Assembly: GCA_947499095.1 (NCBI GenBank)
Contig: CANMMR010000001.1
Location: forward strand, 310,001 to 374,000
Length of the DNA: 64,000 nucleotides
DNA from: an uncultured Erythrobacter sp.
GTDB taxonomy: Bacteria > Pseudomonadota > Alphaproteobacteria > Sphingomonadales > Sphingomonadaceae
Direction: 5' to 3'
Position numbers and translations under genes: made by a program. Positions 5,772-50,345 of the stretch are shown one piece after another (the stretch's first letter is position 1; each line of letters begins with the position of its first letter). The notes beneath the pieces were generated by a model. That model saw nothing but the letters and a program-made list of their open reading frames with translations, was not told the DNA's origin and searched no databases.

Positions 5772-6307
5772 TTACCTGTCGTTCCTGCGCGGACCGCCGG
5801 TGCGGTTCGGGCGCGAATAGTGCTGGTTGGGATTGGCCTCGCGATGGGCGCGGGCCCGGGCTTTCTTGTCGGCGATACGCTCGCGCATCACGAGCGTGAG
5901 GCGCTGCAACACGTCGTCCATGTTCTCGAGGATCTCGGCGGCGGGTATGCGCATCACGCGGATGTCGACTGCCTCGAGGCTCTTGTCGCGGCGCTTGGCC
6001 AGCGTTTCGTCCGCATCCTCCTCGTCGATCATCACGGCGAGGCCGAGGTTGTGACAGTTGAAATCGACGATCGCGCTGCCGACCACGGCATGGCGGGTGA
6101 ATTTGTAGCGGCCCATGTCGGCCTCGGCGAATTTCTTCGCCAGCGCCTTGTGCGCCGGAGTCGAATGCCGCCGCAAGTCGCGCGCACGGTCATGCAGCGC
6201 ATCGAGCCGCTTATCCGAAATCTCCCACCCACGGCCCTTCTTCTTGAGGGAGGGGGTGTCGTCGGCGATCTCGGACGCGTCGCGAAGCTGGAGGGTCTTG
6301 CGGTCAG

Positions 6308-38310: not shown

Positions 38311-38903
38311 GCGGGCAACACACCTTCTTCGCGCAGCGCGTCAAGCACCTGCAGCAGCGGCATGCCGAGCACGGTGAAATGGTCACCCATGATGCTCTCG
38401 AACAGCTGCACACCCGGCCCCTCCATGCGGAATACGCCGACGCAACAGGACACCGCGGGCCATTCGGCGTCGAGATAGGCCTCGATGAAATCCTCGCTCA
38501 ACTCGCGCACGCGCAGCCGGGCGAAATCGGAGCCGACCCAGACGATCTGCCCCTCTCGCGCCAATGCTGCCGCGCTGTGCAGCGTCATAACCTTGTCCGA
38601 GAAAAAGCGCAGATGCTCGGCTGCCTGTTCGCGCGATTGTGGCTTGTCGAAACGTCGGCCCTCGACCTCGACCAGCGAATCCGACCCCAGCACAAGGCCA
38701 CCCGCCGTCACCGCGGCAGCCTTGGCCGCAGCCAGCGCTTGGGCGATCTCGGCAGGCTCCGCGCCCTCCATTTCCGCTTCGAGCGCGCGCTCGTCGACAT
38801 CGGCGGCCTCCGCCGTAAAGGCCACACCAGCTGCCTCCAGCATCGCCTTGCGCGAAGCGCTGTTAGACGCGAGCACGATTCCGCCTCCCGAAATCCCGCT
38901 CAT
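38307..38903 (-). CDS. maf: Maf-family nucleotide pyrophosphatase
   Basis: [20 protein letters not shown]...[17 protein letters not shown]. Confidence 0.94.
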
Positions 38904-39784
38904 ATCGGTTTCGCCCCTTGCGATGTGCCGCGCATCTCGCGTTCATTGTAAAGGCGGATCACCGCCGCTGCCGTCTCCTCGATCGATCGGCGCGTCACAT
39001 CGATCACGGCCCAGCCATTGTCGGCGAACATCCGCCGGGCAAACGCCACTTCGCTCTTCACCTTCTCCTGATCGGCATAGTCGGTCTGCGCCTGCTCGTT
39101 GAGGCTGAGTAGTCGGTTGCGGCGGATCTGGACCAGCCGCTCCGGCGCCGTCGTGAGGCCAATCACCATTGGATTCTTTAGCGAGTAAAGCGCCGGCGGC
39201 GGCGGGCTTTCCACGACCAGCGGAATGTTCGCCACCTTATAGCCGCGATTGGCGAGGTAGATACTGGTCGGCGTCTTTGAGCTGCGCGACACACCGGCGA
39301 GGACGATGTCGGCGTCCTCCCAATTCTCCCAACCCACCCCGTCGTCATGCGCGATGGTGAACTGGATTGCCTCGACCCGCTCGAAATAGGCCTTGTCCAT
39401 AGTGTGCTGGCGACCGGGGCGGCCATGCGCCTCCTGGCCTAGCGCCTTCTCCAGCGCCGCCGTCACATGGTCGAGGATCGGCACGGCGGGCAGGCCCTGT
39501 TGCGCGCAGACCTCTTCCAAGCGGGCGCGCGTGTCCGGATTGACGAGTGTGAAGAGGACAAGGCCGGGATTGGCCTTGAGTTCGGGCACGATCCGTTCGA
39601 GATGCTGCCTGCTCCTGACCATCGGCCAGAAGTGACGCATCACATCGGCATCCTCGAATTGCGCGAGCGCGGCCTTGGCCAGCATTTCGAGCGTTTCGCC
39701 GGTGGAATCGGACAGAAGGTGGAGATGGATGCGATCGGGAATTGCGGGCCTGCCTGCCTGTGGAGAAGCACCGGCATAAACCAC
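38900..39784 (-). CDS. PEP synthase/PPDK regulatory protein (DUF299)
   Basis: [22 protein letters not shown]...[30 protein letters not shown]; probable GTG start 39784. Confidence 0.93.
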
Positions 39785-40062
39785 GGGAGAAAGCTGCCGA
39801 CAAGTTCGGGAGCAAATTGTGTGCCCGATCCGAGTCCTCCGCGCGCCGATTCCCGCACACCAAACGCAAGTTTTGCGCAAGGGGTGGAATAGCGAGGATA
39901 AGTTTGACTCGACTCAACCCCGCAGCCGAGTCGCGATCCGGGACACACCCTTTGCACGGCGGGAGAAATCGGGCAGGGGCGGCTTATCCCTGAAATCCAC
40001 AGGGCCAACAGACTCCATCAACTCTTATAAATATTACTATTATTATTGGATTGGACTCTCCG
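39785..40062. other. oriC: Putative chromosomal replication origin (oriC), hemE/DUF299 intergenic
   Basis: Caulobacter-type gene context; 22/23 A+T tract at 40025-40047; DnaA-box-like 9-mers at 39893-39901 (-), 39984-39992, 39993-40001 and just outside at 39759-39767 (-, TTCTCCACA); seven GANTC sites. Confidence 0.75.
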
Positions 40063-41088
40063 ATGCCCGGTCTCCTCCTCGATACGCTGAACGGAAAGCG
40101 CGGGAGCCGCGTGCCGCTCTGGCTCATGCGCCAGGCCGGTCGCTACCTGCCCGAATATCGCGCGCTGCGGGCGGAGAAGGGCGGCTTCCTCGCCATGGCC
40201 TACGATAGCGAGGCGGCTTGCGAGATCACCCTCCAGCCGATCGACCGTTTCGGCTTCGACGGCGCGATCCTTTTTTCGGACATTCTCATCGTGCCGCATG
40301 CTTTGGGGCAGCATCTCGAATTTCTGGCGGGCGAGGGGCCGAAGCTCTCGCCGCCACTGGTCGACGCAAGTCTCGAGAGCCTAGAACCCGATCCCTCGCG
40401 CTACGAACCGATCTACGAGACGGTTCGCCTGTGCCGCCAGCGGCTCGGCCCGGAAACCACCATGCTGGGCTTTGCCGGCAGTCCTTGGACCGTCGCGACC
40501 TATATGGTCGCTGGCGAAGGGAGCCGCGACCAGCATGAGGCGCGGGCGATGGCTTATCGCGATCCGGCGGCGCTCCAGGCGATCGTGGATGCGATTTCCG
40601 TCCAGACGATCGAATATCTGCGCGGGCAGATCGATGCGGGCGCGGAAGCGGTGCAATTGTTCGATAGCTGGTCGGGCAGCCTCGCCCCGGACGAATTCGA
40701 GCGCTGGGTCATCGCGCCCAATGCGGCCATCGTCGCGGCGCTGGGCGAAAGCCATCCGGACACGCCGGTGATCGGCTTTCCGAAGGGCGCCGGTGAGAAG
40801 CTTCCGGCTTATGCGCGCGAAACCGGCGTGAAGGCCGTCGGTGTGGACGAGACGCTCGATCCTGCGTGGGTCGCGCGCGAGTTGCCCGCAGGCATGCCGG
40901 TGCAGGGCAATCTCGATCCGCTGCTGCTGCTGGCCGGGTCCGATGCACTCGAAGCGCGCATTCGCACCATCCTCGACGCATTTGCCGACCGGCCGCATGT
41001 CTTCAACCTCGGGCATGGGATCGACCGGCGCACGCCGATCGGACATGTCGAGCGGCTGATCGAAGCGGTCCGCGGTTTCGAGGGGTGA
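40063..41088 (+). CDS. hemE: Uroporphyrinogen decarboxylase
   Basis: PLWLMRQAGRYLPEYRALRAEKGGFLAMAYD...ILFSDILIVPHALG...VFNLGHGI. Confidence 0.97.
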   Translation: MPGLLLDTLNGKRGSRVPLWLMRQAGRYLPEYRALRAEKGGFLAMAYDSEAACEITLQPIDRFGFDGAILFSDILIVPHALGQHLEFLAGEGPKLSPPLVDASLESLEPDPSRYEPIYETVRLCRQRLGPETTMLGFAGSPWTVATYMVAGEGSRDQHEARAMAYRDPAALQAIVDAISVQTIEYLRGQIDAGAEAVQLFDSWSGSLAPDEFERWVIAPNAAIVAALGESHPDTPVIGFPKGAGEKLPAYARETGVKAVGVDETLDPAWVARELPAGMPVQGNLDPLLLLAGSDALEARIRTILDAFADRPHVFNLGHGIDRRTPIGHVERLIEAVRGFEG

Positions 41089-43296: not shown

Positions 43297-45894
43297 GTGG
43301 CGTCGCTCAGCTCTCTTGCGTTCCCGCATAAGGTGACTGCCTCGCGCAGCGCGCGCGTGCTCACGCGCGAGCGCTTCGCCAGCGTACTCTTGCCGATGAT
43401 TACCGTAATCCTGCTTGGCATCCTCCACCAGGCGCAGGTCTTTCGCGACATCGACGGGCGGATTTTCGATCGGTTCGCCGTCGTCGGGAGCGCAACTGCC
43501 CCCACGGTGGTCGTGGTGGAACGCGATCCGCGCTTTGCCGCAATGGGACCCGACCGCTATGCCACTCTCGATCGAGTCTTGGCCGGTTCGGGTATCGAGC
43601 GCATCGGCTATCTCGGCTTCCGCGACACTCAGAGGAGCGGAGCGAGCATCCCGGTGATCGTCGGCCGAAGCGCCGACAGAGTGCCCCTTAGCGGACGCTG
43701 GCAGTTCGCTCCCGCGCTCGCAGTCTCAGACACTGGCGCCTTGAAAGCGGCTTCCAATCTCGCGCCGTCCGAATACGGAATCCAGCGCAGCCAACATCTG
43801 GGGCTGCCTGGTGGCGGACACATCGTGCCGTCGTTCGAATCCGCTCTAGCCGGTGTTGAACCACGCGAGGGTGAGTTCCTCGTTCGTATGCCGCGCGCGC
43901 AGTCGATCCCCGTCATTCCGGCGAGCCAGCTGGTCGCGGGCGATCTCTCGGGAGCCGACCTTGCCGGAACCGTAGCTTTGGTCGCAGCGCCAGCCGCGCT
44001 TGAGCCTTCGCTCGAAACGCCGCGCGATCCTGACATGCGAGCCATGTCCGAAGCGATCTTCCGCGCCCACGCCGTCCACGATTTGCGGACCGGCCGGCAG
44101 GTCGTCCGTGCAGCCGCATGGAACAGCTGGATTTTACTACTCGCTGTCGGGTTGGCATTGGCGATCACCTTTCGCCGGAGCGATCCGAAGCAGCTCATCT
44201 TGCGCGTTTCGATCATTGCCAGCGTGCTGATCGCCGCGGGCGGTTGGCTCGCGCTCGAATTCGCCGGACGTTTGTTGCCGCTGACGGCCCTGCTGCTCGC
44301 GCCCTGGATTATTGCCATCCAGCGCATTCTCATCCGCGAGCGGCGCCAGGACAATCGTCTGGAACAGGTCGCTGCTCGGGCAGTCCAGCATTCGGTGCAT
44401 CGCTCGGCACTGCGCGAAGGGGCAAGGCTACCGCAATTCGTCGATCCGACGGCGCGCATCGCGGGGATCGAGAAGAGCCTGCTGATCGAGCTCTCCCGCA
44501 CCGGCGAATTGCAGCTCGTGAGCGCTATCGATGCCGGGCTCGACGATATCGCGATGGACCCTACCGAGCTATCGAAAGAACTCGCGAAGATGCGCGGGCG
44601 CCAGGTCGGCTTCGATGCCGCGGCTTTGGTCCCCGGTTGGGCCTGTGAGGCGCGGCTGACCTGGATCGGCGGGGCCGAGCGCAACCTCTTCTGGCTCTAC
44701 GCCGTTCCGCCCGGAGGACGCAGCGGCAAGCGCGGGCAACTGGTGCGCGCGGCTGCCGCCTCCTTTCGCGAGCTGTTTCGCTGGCGCGCCGATCTGAACG
44801 CGCGCGAGCGACAGGAGGAACGCTACCTCCCGATCGACGAGAAGGTCGCCAGCGCGGTCTCGCTTGTCGCTCGTGAATCCGACCAGGTCCGCCGCGGTTT
44901 CGACACGATCGATACCGCGGTGATGATTTTCCACCTTATCGGATCCCCGCTCCATGCCAACCGCGCGATGGAAGACCTCTACCGCGAAGCCGAGCTCGCC
45001 GTGAACGAGACACCGCTGGTCGACGCGATCGTCGCTCTGACCGGGCTCGATATCGTCCGGGTAGAGGCGCTGCTGCAGGAGCTGGTGTTCCGCGGCGGCG
45101 AAATGCGCCTGCCGATGCGGCAGTTCGGTCCGGTCGAGCGCATCCTTCGTGTGGCGGCGCCGGACAGCATGGCGCGGGGCATGGACCGGGTGATCGTGAT
45201 CGAAGCGGTCGATATCACGGAATTGCACGCCGCTGCAGACCTGCGCCAGTCGGTCGGACTGTTCATCGACCTCCAGCTTCGCAACGATCTCGAAGCGATC
45301 CTGCTTGCGGCCGACCTTGCGAGCGACCCGCGGGTCGGCGCGGAAAAGATCGGTCCGATCATAGCGCGGATCGGTGAGGCCACACGCCGCGCCACCGGAC
45401 GTCTGGACGAGGTCGCGGAGCTCGTGCGCGGCGAGAACGAGGAACTGGTCGAGGCCTGTTATCCCGTCGATGCCCGCGCGCTGGTCCTCCAGACTCTCGA
45501 GAAAACCGCCGGGATGGCCGAAGAGCTGGAAGTCGGGATCGATATCCAGCTGCCGGCGATGAGCGGCTTCACCATCGCCGAACCGCGTGCGCTTGGCGAC
45601 ATGCTGGAAGCCATGCTGCGCGTCGTGGTGGCCGATACGCCGCAAGGCGAGACGGTCACGGTCCGGCTCGAAGAGAAGAACACCGAGACGCGGGTCAACA
45701 TCGCCGGCGGTTTCGGGATCGGCTTCGGCAGGCTCGTCTATCTGCTCACCAAGGGCGAGGATCAGTCGGTCGGCGAGTACCGCCAGATCAATCGCGGCAT
45801 CGCCCGCACTGCCAAGTGGGGCGGCAGCGTCTCCTACTGGGGCCGCGAGGCCAACGGATTCGGATTCAACGTAAAATTGAGGCGCATCGGATGA
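43297..45894 (+). CDS. CHASE2-like sensor with degenerate histidine-kinase-like C-terminus
   Basis: N-term FRDIDGRIFDRFAVVGSATAPTVVVVERDPRF (CHASE2-like), TM cluster (SWILLLAVGLALAI / LILRVSIIASVLIAAGGWLALEFAGRLLPLTALLLAPWIIAI), C-terminal GFGIGFGRL G-box-like. Confidence 0.75.
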   Translation: MASLSSLAFPHKVTASRSARVLTRERFASVLLPMITVILLGILHQAQVFRDIDGRIFDRFAVVGSATAPTVVVVERDPRFAAMGPDRYATLDRVLAGSGIERIGYLGFRDTQRSGASIPVIVGRSADRVPLSGRWQFAPALAVSDTGALKAASNLAPSEYGIQRSQHLGLPGGGHIVPSFESALAGVEPREGEFLVRMPRAQSIPVIPASQLVAGDLSGADLAGTVALVAAPAALEPSLETPRDPDMRAMSEAIFRAHAVHDLRTGRQVVRAAAWNSWILLLAVGLALAITFRRSDPKQLILRVSIIASVLIAAGGWLALEFAGRLLPLTALLLAPWIIAIQRILIRERRQDNRLEQVAARAVQHSVHRSALREGARLPQFVDPTARIAGIEKSLLIELSRTGELQLVSAIDAGLDDIAMDPTELSKELAKMRGRQVGFDAAALVPGWACEARLTWIGGAERNLFWLYAVPPGGRSGKRGQLVRAAAASFRELFRWRADLNARERQEERYLPIDEKVASAVSLVARESDQVRRGFDTIDTAVMIFHLIGSPLHANRAMEDLYREAELAVNETPLVDAIVALTGLDIVRVEALLQELVFRGGEMRLPMRQFGPVERILRVAAPDSMARGMDRVIVIEAVDITELHAAADLRQSVGLFIDLQLRNDLEAILLAADLASDPRVGAEKIGPIIARIGEATRRATGRLDEVAELVRGENEELVEACYPVDARALVLQTLEKTAGMAEELEVGIDIQLPAMSGFTIAEPRALGDMLEAMLRVVVADTPQGETVTVRLEEKNTETRVNIAGGFGIGFGRLVYLLTKGEDQSVGEYRQINRGIARTAKWGGSVSYWGREANGFGFNVKLRRIG

Positions 45895-46277
45895 CTTTGC
45901 CGCATATCCTTATCGTCGACGATGACGAAATCCTCGCCAGTCTTCTGCAGATCACGCTGGAGGTCGAGGGCTACGAGGTGTCGACCGCACCAGATGGCGA
46001 GGCTGCGCTGGCGCGGCTGGCCGAGGGTGGGATCGATCTGGTCGTGCTCGATCTCGTGATGCCCAAAATGGACGGAGTGCGCTTCCTGCGCGTGCTGAAC
46101 GAACAGGGTGAGGCTCGTCCTCCGGTGATCGTCATCTCCTCGACTGCGGGCAATACCGTGTCCGACGAGTTCCGGGCACTCGGCGTCGTCACCATCGCGC
46201 GCAAGCCGGTCGAGCCGAGCTGGCTCGTGGCGAATATCGCGGGCGCGTTCGGACAAGGAGCCGCGAACGCCGGATGA
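45891..46277 (+). CDS. Single-domain response regulator
   Basis: ILIVDDDEILASLLQ...DLVVLDLVMPKMDG...VISSTAG...IARKPVEP; ATGA overlaps both sides. Confidence 0.93.
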   Translation: MTLPHILIVDDDEILASLLQITLEVEGYEVSTAPDGEAALARLAEGGIDLVVLDLVMPKMDGVRFLRVLNEQGEARPPVIVISSTAGNTVSDEFRALGVVTIARKPVEPSWLVANIAGAFGQGAANAG

Positions 46278-48817
46278 GCCTCTTCCCGCTCGCCATATTC
46301 CCCGAGGGCGGCCTCGTCAGCTCGATCATCACGACCGTCTGGGTCGGGGTCTTCGTACTGTGCTTTTTCAACCTGCGCTACGGCTGGGTCCTCTCGGGCC
46401 TGGTGGTGCCGGGCTATATCGTGCCGCTGCTGATCGTGAAACCGGTGGCCGGCTTCGTGATTATTCTGGAGGCAGTCCTCGCCTATGCGCTCGTCTGGCT
46501 TTTCTCCGAAAAGTTGAGCCGCGGCCGCTATCCCAGTCTGTTCGGGCGCGACCGTTTCATGGGGCTTATCCTTGCGAGCATCGCCGTCCGTTTGATTATG
46601 GATGGCTACGTCCTGCCCGAATTCGCCGGGTGGCTGGAGAGCAATTTCGACCGCCGTTTCGACTGGCGTGACAATCTCCAGAGCTTCGGCCTCGTCATCA
46701 TTTCCTTGCTGGCGAACCAGTTCTGGAAGCCGGGGCTGGTGCGTGGGCTGGGCGCTGCCGTCGTGACGATGGGGATCACCTATCTCGTAGTCCGCTACGG
46801 CCTGATGGAGTTCACCAATTTCCGTATGAGTGCGGTGACCTACATGTATGAGGGTCTCGCAAGCTCGATCCTGGCCAGTCCGAAGGCCTATATTATCCTG
46901 ACCCTGACCGCGCTTATCGCCAGTCATATGAACGTGCGCTATGGCTGGGACTTCTCGGGCATCCTGATCCCGGCGCTGATTGCGCTGCAATGGTATCAGC
47001 CGACCAAGATCGTCACCTCCTTTCTCGAAGCGATCATTATCTACGTGATCGCGCGACTCGTTCTGAAGCTGCCGAGCATGGCCAATGCGACGATTGAGGG
47101 CGGAAGCAAACTGCTGCTGTTCTTCAACATCAGCTTCGCCTGGAAGATGGCGCTGGGATGGTTCATCGTCTGGCAGGGCTACGACGTGAAGACGACCGAC
47201 TTCTACGGCTTCGGGTATCTCCTTTCCACGCTCATCGCAATCAAGGCACACGACAAGAACATCTTCCCGCGCCTCGCCCGCTCGACCTTGCAGGTCAGCT
47301 TCATGGGCGCAGTCTTTGGAAACATCGTCGGTTTCGCGCTGTCGGCGGCGGTTTCGCGGACTCCCGGTGGTTCGGTGATGGCGGAGGCTGACGGATTGTC
47401 CCGAAGCGAAGATCGCATCGAGTTGCTTGTAGCCGAGGCGATCGGCGACGCGCATGTCCGCAGGGTCTCGGGCAAGGCGGCGCCATTGTCGGATGCTGCG
47501 CGCGAAGATCTGGCGGAGTTGGTCTACGGCTTGCAGCAAGGTGTGCCCGCCTCCTCTCCCGATTTCGATATGCAGGCTGATGCGTGGCGGTTGATGTCGG
47601 TCGGCGATGGTCGGCTGGCGGTTGTCAGAGCCGACGACGATGGCCACGAAATGTTGCTGTACGACCCGTCGGCAGCCCGCGATGCCGCAATCGTCCTGCG
47701 GGATCCGGCCAGCAAGCCTGGTTTGGGGGTAGCGGGTCTGGCGCTGCGTCAGAAACTCGACGCACGGTGGCTCGTCATATCGACGCCGGAAAGCGCCGGT
47801 ACGATCGCGGAAGCGAGTGTGGCCGATGTATTCGCGGATGCGAGCGAAACCGTCTTGCTCGAATTGCAAGCCGGTGCGGGCGAACCGTCCGAGATTGCCT
47901 ATGCCAATGCATCGGCCGGTGTCCTCGATCTCTCGAGCCTAGAGGCCGCAGTTCCGGATATCCGTGCCGGCATCGATATTGGCGCGAGCAACGGAGGTGG
48001 AGACCGTGCCGTCCTTTCTCTGAGCGACGCGGCGCTCGAAGGACTCGCCGCGATGCGTGTACCGCGCCTGCGCGACGGTGCCGCCTGTCGCCTAGTTGCC
48101 AATGGCAATGCCGGGGTGAAATGGCGAGACGTCGAACGCCTCGCCTTTGTTCGGTATGAAGTCGCGGAGCCCTTCGTCGCCTCCGTCCGCGAAGGAGAAG
48201 TTGCAACCCACGCCCGCGCAGCTGCCAAGACCGCAGGCTTCGGAGTTGCTCGATGCACGCTGGGAGGCCGTAACCACTGGACACTCTTTTCGAGTCAGCG
48301 GGACGAGGGCCAGATATTCATCGCCGAAGGTGCACCCCTCGCCAAGAGCGTGCTTACCTGGCGCGAGGAAGACTATGGCAAGGCCGCCCGGCTCGGTGTC
48401 GCTGTGCATCGCAACTGGGGAGGCGATGTCTTGCTGGTTGCAGCGCAGCCCGACGGTTTTTCCCGATCGCCCAGCTCGGCCATGACGGTGATCTGGCAGG
48501 AAATCGTCCGGCAGCAGGTGGGAAAAGAGGAAGCGTTCTCTTTCCACCTGCGCCAGCGGCCGAAGGGCTCTGCCTTTCCCGAAGCCCGTCCCGAAGTCTT
48601 GCTGATACAGGATGTGGTGGGGCCGGAATATTCCGAACTCGGGGACCTCGCATCGGCATTGCGCGAGGCCGGGATCCGCACCGAGCTTTCGGACGGCAGC
48701 CGGGCCTTTGCAGGATATGAAGCACGCCCGGCTCAGGCCGAGCGCTATTATGATGCCACGAGCGGACGCCGCTCCGCGATCGGATGGGTGCTTAATTACG
48801 GAGGCGATCGGCAATGA
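46274..48817 (+). CDS. PgsC/CapC-like poly-gamma-glutamate biosynthesis membrane protein with extra C-terminal domain
   Basis: Two CapC-like repeats (FNLRYGWVLSGLVVPGYIVPLLIVKPVAGFVII and MNVRYGWDFSGILIPALIALQWYQPTKIVTSFLEA), many TMs, ~470-aa soluble C-terminus. Confidence 0.75.
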   Translation: MSLFPLAIFPEGGLVSSIITTVWVGVFVLCFFNLRYGWVLSGLVVPGYIVPLLIVKPVAGFVIILEAVLAYALVWLFSEKLSRGRYPSLFGRDRFMGLILASIAVRLIMDGYVLPEFAGWLESNFDRRFDWRDNLQSFGLVIISLLANQFWKPGLVRGLGAAVVTMGITYLVVRYGLMEFTNFRMSAVTYMYEGLASSILASPKAYIILTLTALIASHMNVRYGWDFSGILIPALIALQWYQPTKIVTSFLEAIIIYVIARLVLKLPSMANATIEGGSKLLLFFNISFAWKMALGWFIVWQGYDVKTTDFYGFGYLLSTLIAIKAHDKNIFPRLARSTLQVSFMGAVFGNIVGFALSAAVSRTPGGSVMAEADGLSRSEDRIELLVAEAIGDAHVRRVSGKAAPLSDAAREDLAELVYGLQQGVPASSPDFDMQADAWRLMSVGDGRLAVVRADDDGHEMLLYDPSAARDAAIVLRDPASKPGLGVAGLALRQKLDARWLVISTPESAGTIAEASVADVFADASETVLLELQAGAGEPSEIAYANASAGVLDLSSLEAAVPDIRAGIDIGASNGGGDRAVLSLSDAALEGLAAMRVPRLRDGAACRLVANGNAGVKWRDVERLAFVRYEVAEPFVASVREGEVATHARAAAKTAGFGVARCTLGGRNHWTLFSSQRDEGQIFIAEGAPLAKSVLTWREEDYGKAARLGVAVHRNWGGDVLLVAAQPDGFSRSPSSAMTVIWQEIVRQQVGKEEAFSFHLRQRPKGSAFPEARPEVLLIQDVVGPEYSELGDLASALREAGIRTELSDGSRAFAGYEARPAQAERYYDATSGRRSAIGWVLNYGGDRQ

Positions 48818-49578
48818 GCCTGACCTTCGTGGGCCGTAGCATCCTATTCGCCGTCCTCGCGGCGCTCGCCGCCTATGGGGGTTGGGCCTGGGCCGTGCCA
48901 TTAGCGCGCTATTTCGTGGCAGCGCAGGATTCTACCCAGATGGACCTTCGTATCGCGAAACGCACGCTGGCATATCGGCTTGAGCGGGACGTACCGATGA
49001 CGTTCGTCTTGTCGCAGCCTGCCGAAGAGCTGAAAGTCATCGCGCACGTCGCGGTCACTTCCCCTCCCGCCGATGTGGCCGGGGCTTCATACACGCTTCA
49101 CTTCGCGCTTTTCGATGTTCAGGGGGTTCAGGTTGCGGAATACGAACGCGCTCTCGTTTCCGGTCGCGGCGGTGGGTATCTCCCGGACGGAAGGGCACGG
49201 CGCTTCTACCGCTCGAGCGAAGCACACATTTGGGGCCAGGATCAGCTGGTAATTCGCAGCAACGTGCCGCTTACCCGCGTAGAGGTCACGCTGCAAGATA
49301 GCGATCCCATGGTAGTAGGTGTGGATGCGCGGGTCTACGAGCGGCGCCCCGTCTCCGCCGGAGACGGTCGGGCCGTATTTTTGCGTCGCAGCAGGGAAGA
49401 GCGCGCGGCCCTGACCGCGTTCAGTCCGTTTCCGCCCGAAATGCTTTCCGCATCCGAGATTACGCACCTTGCAAGCAATCTTTGGCGACCGATCGGTCCC
49501 GTGGGTATCGAAGGCCGCGAGTACGATGCTTTGGTCATCTACGAAGCCGACAGAGCCGCCGAAGAGGCAGAGTCATGA
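48814..49578 (+). CDS. Single-TM periplasmic protein of unknown function in PgsBC-like operon
   Basis: N-terminal TM (SILFAVLAALAAYGGWAWAVPLARYF), beta-rich remainder; ATGA overlaps. Confidence 0.75.
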   Translation: MSLTFVGRSILFAVLAALAAYGGWAWAVPLARYFVAAQDSTQMDLRIAKRTLAYRLERDVPMTFVLSQPAEELKVIAHVAVTSPPADVAGASYTLHFALFDVQGVQVAEYERALVSGRGGGYLPDGRARRFYRSSEAHIWGQDQLVIRSNVPLTRVEVTLQDSDPMVVGVDARVYERRPVSAGDGRAVFLRRSREERAALTAFSPFPPEMLSASEITHLASNLWRPIGPVGIEGREYDALVIYEADRAAEEAES

Positions 49579-50345
49579 TCCGTTGGGCCATCCTCTGGCT
49601 GTCCGGCCTGTTGGCGGGTGGATGCAGCAGCGCGGATGCACGCGATTATTTCGCGCAAGCAGCGCCGCAGGAGCGCGATGCGGCAATACTTGGCTTGGCC
49701 CGGAGCGAAGAAAGCGGGTCGATCATGTTGCGCGACACGCGCCATTGCGGCAGCGGCGGCGAGTACCGGGTTCGCAAGGGAACGGCAGTCCCGTTTGCCA
49801 TCACCGCCCCTCACGCCTTTCACGATCGCAGGACAGGTGAGCTTGCGATGCGTATCTTCGCGCGCAGTCGGGCGGCGGCTGCCGCGCAAAATACCGTCGC
49901 ACGCGATGGTAGTGACGGGTGTGAGGCGCTTGATGTCGCGCGTCAAGGCGAGCATCTGTTCACGCAATTCGCGCTGGGATTCTCCGATCGTTTCCCGGAT
50001 GGCCTCGTCGTCCAGCTACATGGTTTCAACGGGGCGAAGCGCTCGTCATCGCGGGCGGAAGAAGCCTCGGCCATCGTGAGCAATGGAACCGCTTCCCCCG
50101 GTCCCGATACACTCGATCTCGCGGATTGCCTCAGCCGCGCTCTCGCTCCACGCGCCGTACTGGTGTACCCGACGGAAACGAGCGAATTGGGGGCCGAGGA
50201 CAATGCCCAGGGGAAGGCCTTGCGCGAAGCAGGGGGCGCACGCTTTGCGCATCTCGAACTCTCGGCCGACCTGCGCGGAGCGATGATAAGCGACGAGCAG
50301 CTTCTCGACTCTGTCGGTTCTTGCCTCGAGGAAGCTGCGGCGTGA
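49575..50345 (+). CDS. Lipoprotein with PghP / N-formylglutamate amidohydrolase-like motifs
   Basis: Lipobox LLAGGC; PFAITAPHAFHDRRTGELAMRIF and LVVQLHGFNG resemble Zn-amidohydrolase H/E and HG motifs. Confidence 0.6.
   Translation: MIRWAILWLSGLLAGGCSSADARDYFAQAAPQERDAAILGLARSEESGSIMLRDTRHCGSGGEYRVRKGTAVPFAITAPHAFHDRRTGELAMRIFARSRAAAAAQNTVARDGSDGCEALDVARQGEHLFTQFALGFSDRFPDGLVVQLHGFNGAKRSSSRAEEASAIVSNGTASPGPDTLDLADCLSRALAPRAVLVYPTETSELGAEDNAQGKALREAGGARFAHLELSADLRGAMISDEQLLDSVGSCLEEAAA

Follow-up and report, generated by a model that had tools for sequence, protein, structure and literature searches.

Where does chromosome replication begin in the marine alphaproteobacteria related to Qipengyuania and Erythrobacter? 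The window analysed here, a stretch of 64,000 bases, comprises bases 310001–374000 of a 607,586-base contig (C1) from a genome of 2.96 Mb in 25 contigs. In sequence searches the closest relatives of its hemE come from those two genera, whose group is marine. Adjoining hemE is a gap of about 320 bases. Is this gap the chromosomal origin, oriC? Or, is it the regulatory region shared by two divergent genes, with replication starting elsewhere? An origin beside hemE has been proven in Caulobacter and has already been predicted for Sphingomonadaceae (PMC4741004). The gap is therefore the expected origin site for the class, and the present locus is a further case of a known type. Less expected is the conserved cluster of CcrM sites inside it. 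We are highly confident that 39743–40062 is the location of oriC in this Qipengyuania/Erythrobacter-type alphaproteobacterium, on the basis of the position of the GC-skew switch, motif content, conservation and linkage to parS. Our confidence in each step of the mechanism proposed below is lower.

Position of the gap and its left edge

A hemE-type oriC is recognised by its place between hemE and the PPSR/DUF299 (RP001) gene, a switch in GC skew, linkage to parABS, conserved DnaA boxes and an A+T-rich unwinding element. The gap lies between these two genes. On its right is hemE, encoding uroporphyrinogen decarboxylase (40063–41088, plus strand; TIGR01464, 385 bits against a cut-off of 303), followed by hemJ and rho. 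On its left is the PPSR/DUF299 gene (38900–39742, minus strand; NF003742, 329 bits against a cut-off of 225), with maf, aroE, coaE and dnaQ beyond it on the same strand. An earlier note, made from the window alone, had given this gene order correctly and had proposed an origin between DUF299 and hemE; skew, the proximity of parAB and parS, and DnaA-box cores found throughout the family all support that proposal.

GC skew, the check that note had suggested, was computed for 404 kb around the window (C1:150-554 kb), a part of the 25-contig assembly rather than a whole chromosome. The cumulative curve has its minimum at window position 45042, 5 kb from the gap, and then rises. Three congeners with single-contig genomes were sampled as well, and each changes sign at hemE within the resolution of the sampling. 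In G031, with hemE at 1,530,571, forty 20-kb samples show mostly negative skew up to the gene and positive skew beyond; they divide best at the sample that starts at 1,522,501. In G045 the switch comes between the samples at 2,176,001 and 2,312,001, with hemE at 2,183,970; in G009, which has a noisy profile, it comes at 145,001, with hemE at 169,646. The best division into two replichores is thus at hemE or in the adjacent sampling interval in all three, with a small amplitude of about 0.03 between replichores.

Partition genes lie on the same contig. parA starts at 63285 and parB is at C1:374247, just past the end of the window. The parS-like palindromes TGTTCCACGTGAAACA (60766–60781, 1 mismatch to consensus) and TGTTCCACGTGGAACA (63224–63239, 2 mismatches) are the only two near-consensus copies in the genome, and parAB and parS are 21–24 kb from the gap. 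The dnaA gene is unlinked, on contig C10, as has been reported for Sphingomonadales (PMC8116508). Some 13–16 kb of other genes (window 43297–56328) separate rho from the trmE-gidA-rsmG-parA cluster; among them are genes for a CapC-like protein and for a response regulator, and a 1457-aa ORF that has no Pfam match at E<=1e-8.

The earlier span, 39785–40062, is right at its hemE end; its left end should be widened to about 39743. Position 39785 matches a PPSR start at a GTG (39784–39782). However, upstream of a 10-residue stretch the PPSR frame is unconserved, and among close relatives the origin block is read in all three frames. We compared the start in loci L057 and L090–L126, 36 of them distinct. 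At the codon homologous to the ATG, GTG or TTG with which sister genera start, 29 of the 36 have ATT, ATC or ATA. Within this Qipengyuania clade ATC occurs 15 times, ATT 12 and ATA 2, the remainder being GTG or ATG. A Shine-Dalgarno-like stretch 5' of this codon has a mean of -5.2 kcal/mol in all 36 loci taken together (background, -2.6), and in most of them it is stronger than that of the upstream candidates. In L111 a stop codon lies four codons 5' of the ATC, and ATG, GTG and TTG are all absent from the interval. PPSR translation in our genome probably starts at a non-canonical ATT at 39740–39742 on the minus strand, and an AUU, AUC or AUA start appears to be common to most of the clade. 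We take this to be similar in kind to the start of infC. Since the frame is unconserved upstream, the codon is homologous and the Shine-Dalgarno-like stretch is in place, the gap probably spans 39743–40062 and includes the box at 39759. The predicted oriC region is accordingly the whole gap from the probable PPSR start to the hemE ATG, a prediction supported by the skew switch and by blocks conserved among 37 close relatives and in 105 sequences of the family.

DnaA boxes and the A+T-rich element

Conservation was assessed in alignments of the 37 close relatives and then of the 105 distinct family sequences. All five motifs named in the earlier note were located by direct reading of the sequence just where it had put them. 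The outer left DnaA box is TTCTCCACA on the minus strand (39759–39767; plus-strand TGTGGAGAA). In its TGTGGA core (39759–39764) the TGT is found in 105 of 105 sequences and the bases of GGA in 98–104. The inner right box, AAATCCACA (39993–40001, plus), adjoins the A+T-rich element; its TCCACA is present in 105/105, and many relatives have NTATCCACA here. CCTGTGGA, within the left box, recurs exactly, in inverted form, as TCCACAGG (39996–40003), 231 bases away; this pair, which the earlier note had not mentioned, bounds the region, so the two outer boxes are in opposite orientation. The right box is followed by GGGCCAACAGACTCC (40002–40016, plus), in which CCAACA is at least 90% conserved and a GANTC at 40011 occurs in 74/105. 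Further blocks on the plus strand that are at least 90% conserved in the family are ATAAACCACGG (39776–39786) and the GACAAG of GACAAGTT (39799–39806). Taken together, TGTGGA, ATAAACCACGG, GACAAG, GGGCAG, TCCACAG (39996–40002) and CCAACA are invariant or nearly so.

Other sites are weaker. TTATCCTCG on the minus strand (39893–39901; plus-strand CGAGGATAA) is a weak DnaA-box-like sequence, and several relatives have TTATCCCCA or TTACCCACA about 170 bases upstream of hemE. TTATCCCTG (39984–39992, plus) is a low-affinity candidate with variable columns, the least conserved box. Of the boxes proposed earlier, then, the cores at 39996–40001 and 39759–39764 hold up as family-conserved and TTATCCCTG does not. 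The block ATAAACCACGG is among the most conserved origin stretches in the whole family, yet it is a poor match to any known box. GTG codons of the PPSR leader fall within it, as do ATG codons in many loci, and it may be a divergent DnaA-type site or an element of that leader.

The boxes are imperfect, as had been remarked before. In 309 bp, one sequence matches TTATCCACA with at most 1 mismatch and three do so with at most 2. Equal or higher counts are found in 1.2% (at most 1 mismatch) and 0.4% (three at up to 2) of the 309-bp windows in the 404 kb, so that the boxes alone are weak evidence of an origin. They become strong evidence because they are conserved. In 68 family loci, boxes with at most 1 mismatch number 1.35 per 320 bp upstream of hemE against 0.03 in flanking DNA, and in 39 further genera of the family the corresponding gap contains DnaA boxes, many of them having the perfect TTATCCACA. 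No perfect copy lies in 39743–40062, and the four in our genome are all on other contigs; perfect boxes are therefore no guide in this host. The boxes here are of the TTSTCCACA/NNATCCACA type, in contrast to the Caulobacter G-box, which we take to have the form TGATCCACA.

The probable DNA unwinding element is TTATAAATATTACTATTATTATT (40025–40047, plus). Its 22 A+T in 23 bases agree with the earlier description, and it is the sole 23-mer with at least 22 A+T in the 404 kb. Its position is conserved, a peak of A+T lying about 36 bases upstream of hemE in nearly all family loci.

From this arrangement we infer DnaA binding, a place of opening and replication activity within 39743–40062. DnaA would probably bind the conserved inverted boxes at the two ends, TTCTCCACA (minus, 39759) and AAATCCACA (plus, 39993), together with the weaker sites between them. 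It would then oligomerise toward the A+T-rich element beside hemE and open it at 40025–40047, with helicase loading to follow, and the copies would be segregated by the neighbouring parS and ParAB.

Several elements of other origins were sought. We rejected a Caulobacter-type, CtrA-regulated origin: there is no TTAA-N7-TTAA, and indeed no TTAA at all, in 39600–40120. The IHF consensus WATCAANNNNTTR, a site described in Caulobacter and Rickettsia, has no exact match at the origin; ATCAA-N3-TTA near 40017–40027 is one spacer base off it, and weak IHF binding there is possible. A Bacillus subtilis-type BUS, a DnaA box with DnaA-trios, needs at least 3 trios no more than 16 bp from the box (PMC8287927). 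The A+T-rich element has a comparable run of trio-like steps on the lower strand (3'-AAT-GAT-AAT-AAT, about 40034–40045). It lies about 30 bp from AAATCCACA, however, and is not conserved in relatives, and this reading was rejected also.

The GANTC cluster

The gap holds seven GANTC in 302 bp, a cluster that the earlier note had not mentioned. Nowhere else in the 404 kb are they as dense: on average there are 0.44 per 306 bp, and the motif is under-represented 2-3-fold (587 observed, about 1330 expected). The origin is also the densest GANTC place within the sampled DNA of G031 and G045. Besides the site at 40011 there are GAGTC at 39832–39836 (42 of the 105 family sequences), GATTC at 39848–39852 (31/105), two adjacent sites in GACTCGACTC at 39906–39915 (41/105 and 60/105) and GACTC just 5' of hemE at 40054–40058 (37/105). 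The site at 39928–39932 is invariant: it is present in 105/105, as GAGTC in 64, GATTC in 39 and GACTC in 2. Such variation at the N would be expected if it is the methylation motif itself that is maintained; alternatively, a protein may bind here to a palindrome whose central base is free. A hairpin in the stretch from GACTCGACTC to CGAGTCG was rejected, single-stranded folding giving no signal (z = 0.11).

Across the 39 further genera the mean is 6.6 GANTC per 430 bp, with a maximum of 20. That maximum is upstream of hemE in L314 (G105:C22:277664-278464), and the corresponding count is 13 in both L292 and L302. Twelve GANTC in about 300 bp were also seen in L278 (G009:C1:2465001-2485000), around base 5930 and far from the G009 origin, and this group could be a repeat.

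The genome encodes CcrM, with a RAMA domain, in an ORF that matches PDB 6pbd (E=3e-149). Judged by sequence, both the cluster and its enzyme are thus in place, and the origin sites are probably methylated by the host CcrM. Methylation would leave them hemimethylated after initiation.

Could the island then be a gate on initiation, keeping hemimethylated origins refractory until CcrM remethylates them late in the cell cycle, on a principle like that of Dam and SeqA that evolved independently? The density of the cluster in the face of genome-wide depletion, here and in G031 and G045, speaks for such a gate, as do the 105/105 site with its varying N, the mean of 6.6 sites in other genera and the presence of CcrM. 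So does the finding, cited in PMC3973325 and PMC2217572, that over-production of CcrM gives extra chromosomes in Caulobacter. Against this, the Caulobacter origin contains several GANTC and yet CcrM is not required there for initiation control, which is normal in a C. crescentus delta-ccrM strain in minimal medium (PMC3973325); the timing of Agrobacterium ori1 is likewise independent of the CcrM level (PMC11514494). The GANTC could instead act in GcrA-dependent transcription of hemE or PPSR. Nor is a sequestration protein known in the host group. We consider a gate of this kind, which would be an addition to the oriC reading, unlikely. The cluster itself is real and conserved.

Alternative readings and related origins

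Some observations count against an origin in the gap: it contains no perfect TTATCCACA, the replichores differ little in skew, G009 gives a noisy profile and dnaA is unlinked. PPSR and hemE do diverge, and promoters in alphaproteobacteria also contain DnaA boxes and GANTC (PMC2877005, PMC3973325), so the gap might be their shared regulatory region, with DnaA and CcrM as transcription regulators and the origin elsewhere. However, the skew switches at the gap in three genomes and has its minimum close by on our own contig, parS and parAB are linked to the gap, 404 kb hold no second A+T-rich element like the one found here and conserved blocks extend over the entire gap. This makes a purely regulatory role very improbable. 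The origin might also lie nearby but outside the gap, for instance near parAB-parS or at 45042, where the skew minimum falls 5 kb into the region downstream of rho. This too is very improbable: cumulative skew differs little between 40 and 45 kb (-1006 and -1064), the sampling of relatives cannot resolve 5 kb, and it is in the gap that the sole A+T-rich 23-mer and the conserved set of boxes are found.

As an oriC, the gap most resembles known origins at hemE. The Cori of Caulobacter crescentus lies between hemE and RP001/DUF299, as the earlier note had stated. Its gene neighbourhood is the same, its DnaA boxes are weak too, it contains GANTC, and its parABS is also found on that side (PMC4468827, PMC3973325). 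By its published description it differs in that here TTAA-N7-TTAA is absent and dnaA is unlinked. The Ori-Finder origin of Sphingopyxis granuli TFA and the DoriC entries are also near hemE, and conserved DnaA boxes accompany a DUE there (PMC4741004). By comparison the boxes of the present gap form a less canonical set, and no GANTC cluster is reported in the passages of PMC4741004 consulted. The Rickettsia prowazekii origin shares the RP001/hemE pair (Brassinga et al., cited in PMC4741004 and PMC4468827). It is reported to have sites for CtrA and for IHF; a match to neither consensus was found here. The repABC replicon origins of Alphaproteobacteria are likewise described as GANTC-rich (PMC6090056); those are RepC-dependent plasmid or chromid origins, whereas the present one is of the DnaA/hemE type.

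These results place oriC in a genus for which the literature searched held no experimental origin, and they make its base-level limits and conserved elements available for testing. Two parts merit follow-up: the GANTC island and the start codon of PPSR. It is quite unlikely, on present evidence, that selection on the methylation motif keeps Sphingomonadaceae origins as GANTC islands and that remethylation by CcrM licenses DnaA-dependent initiation. If true, such licensing would be a second system of the Dam/SeqA kind, evolved independently, in origins without recognisable CtrA sites. The cluster and its 105/105 site make the question of CcrM at the origin testable in a group whose origins lack CtrA sites.
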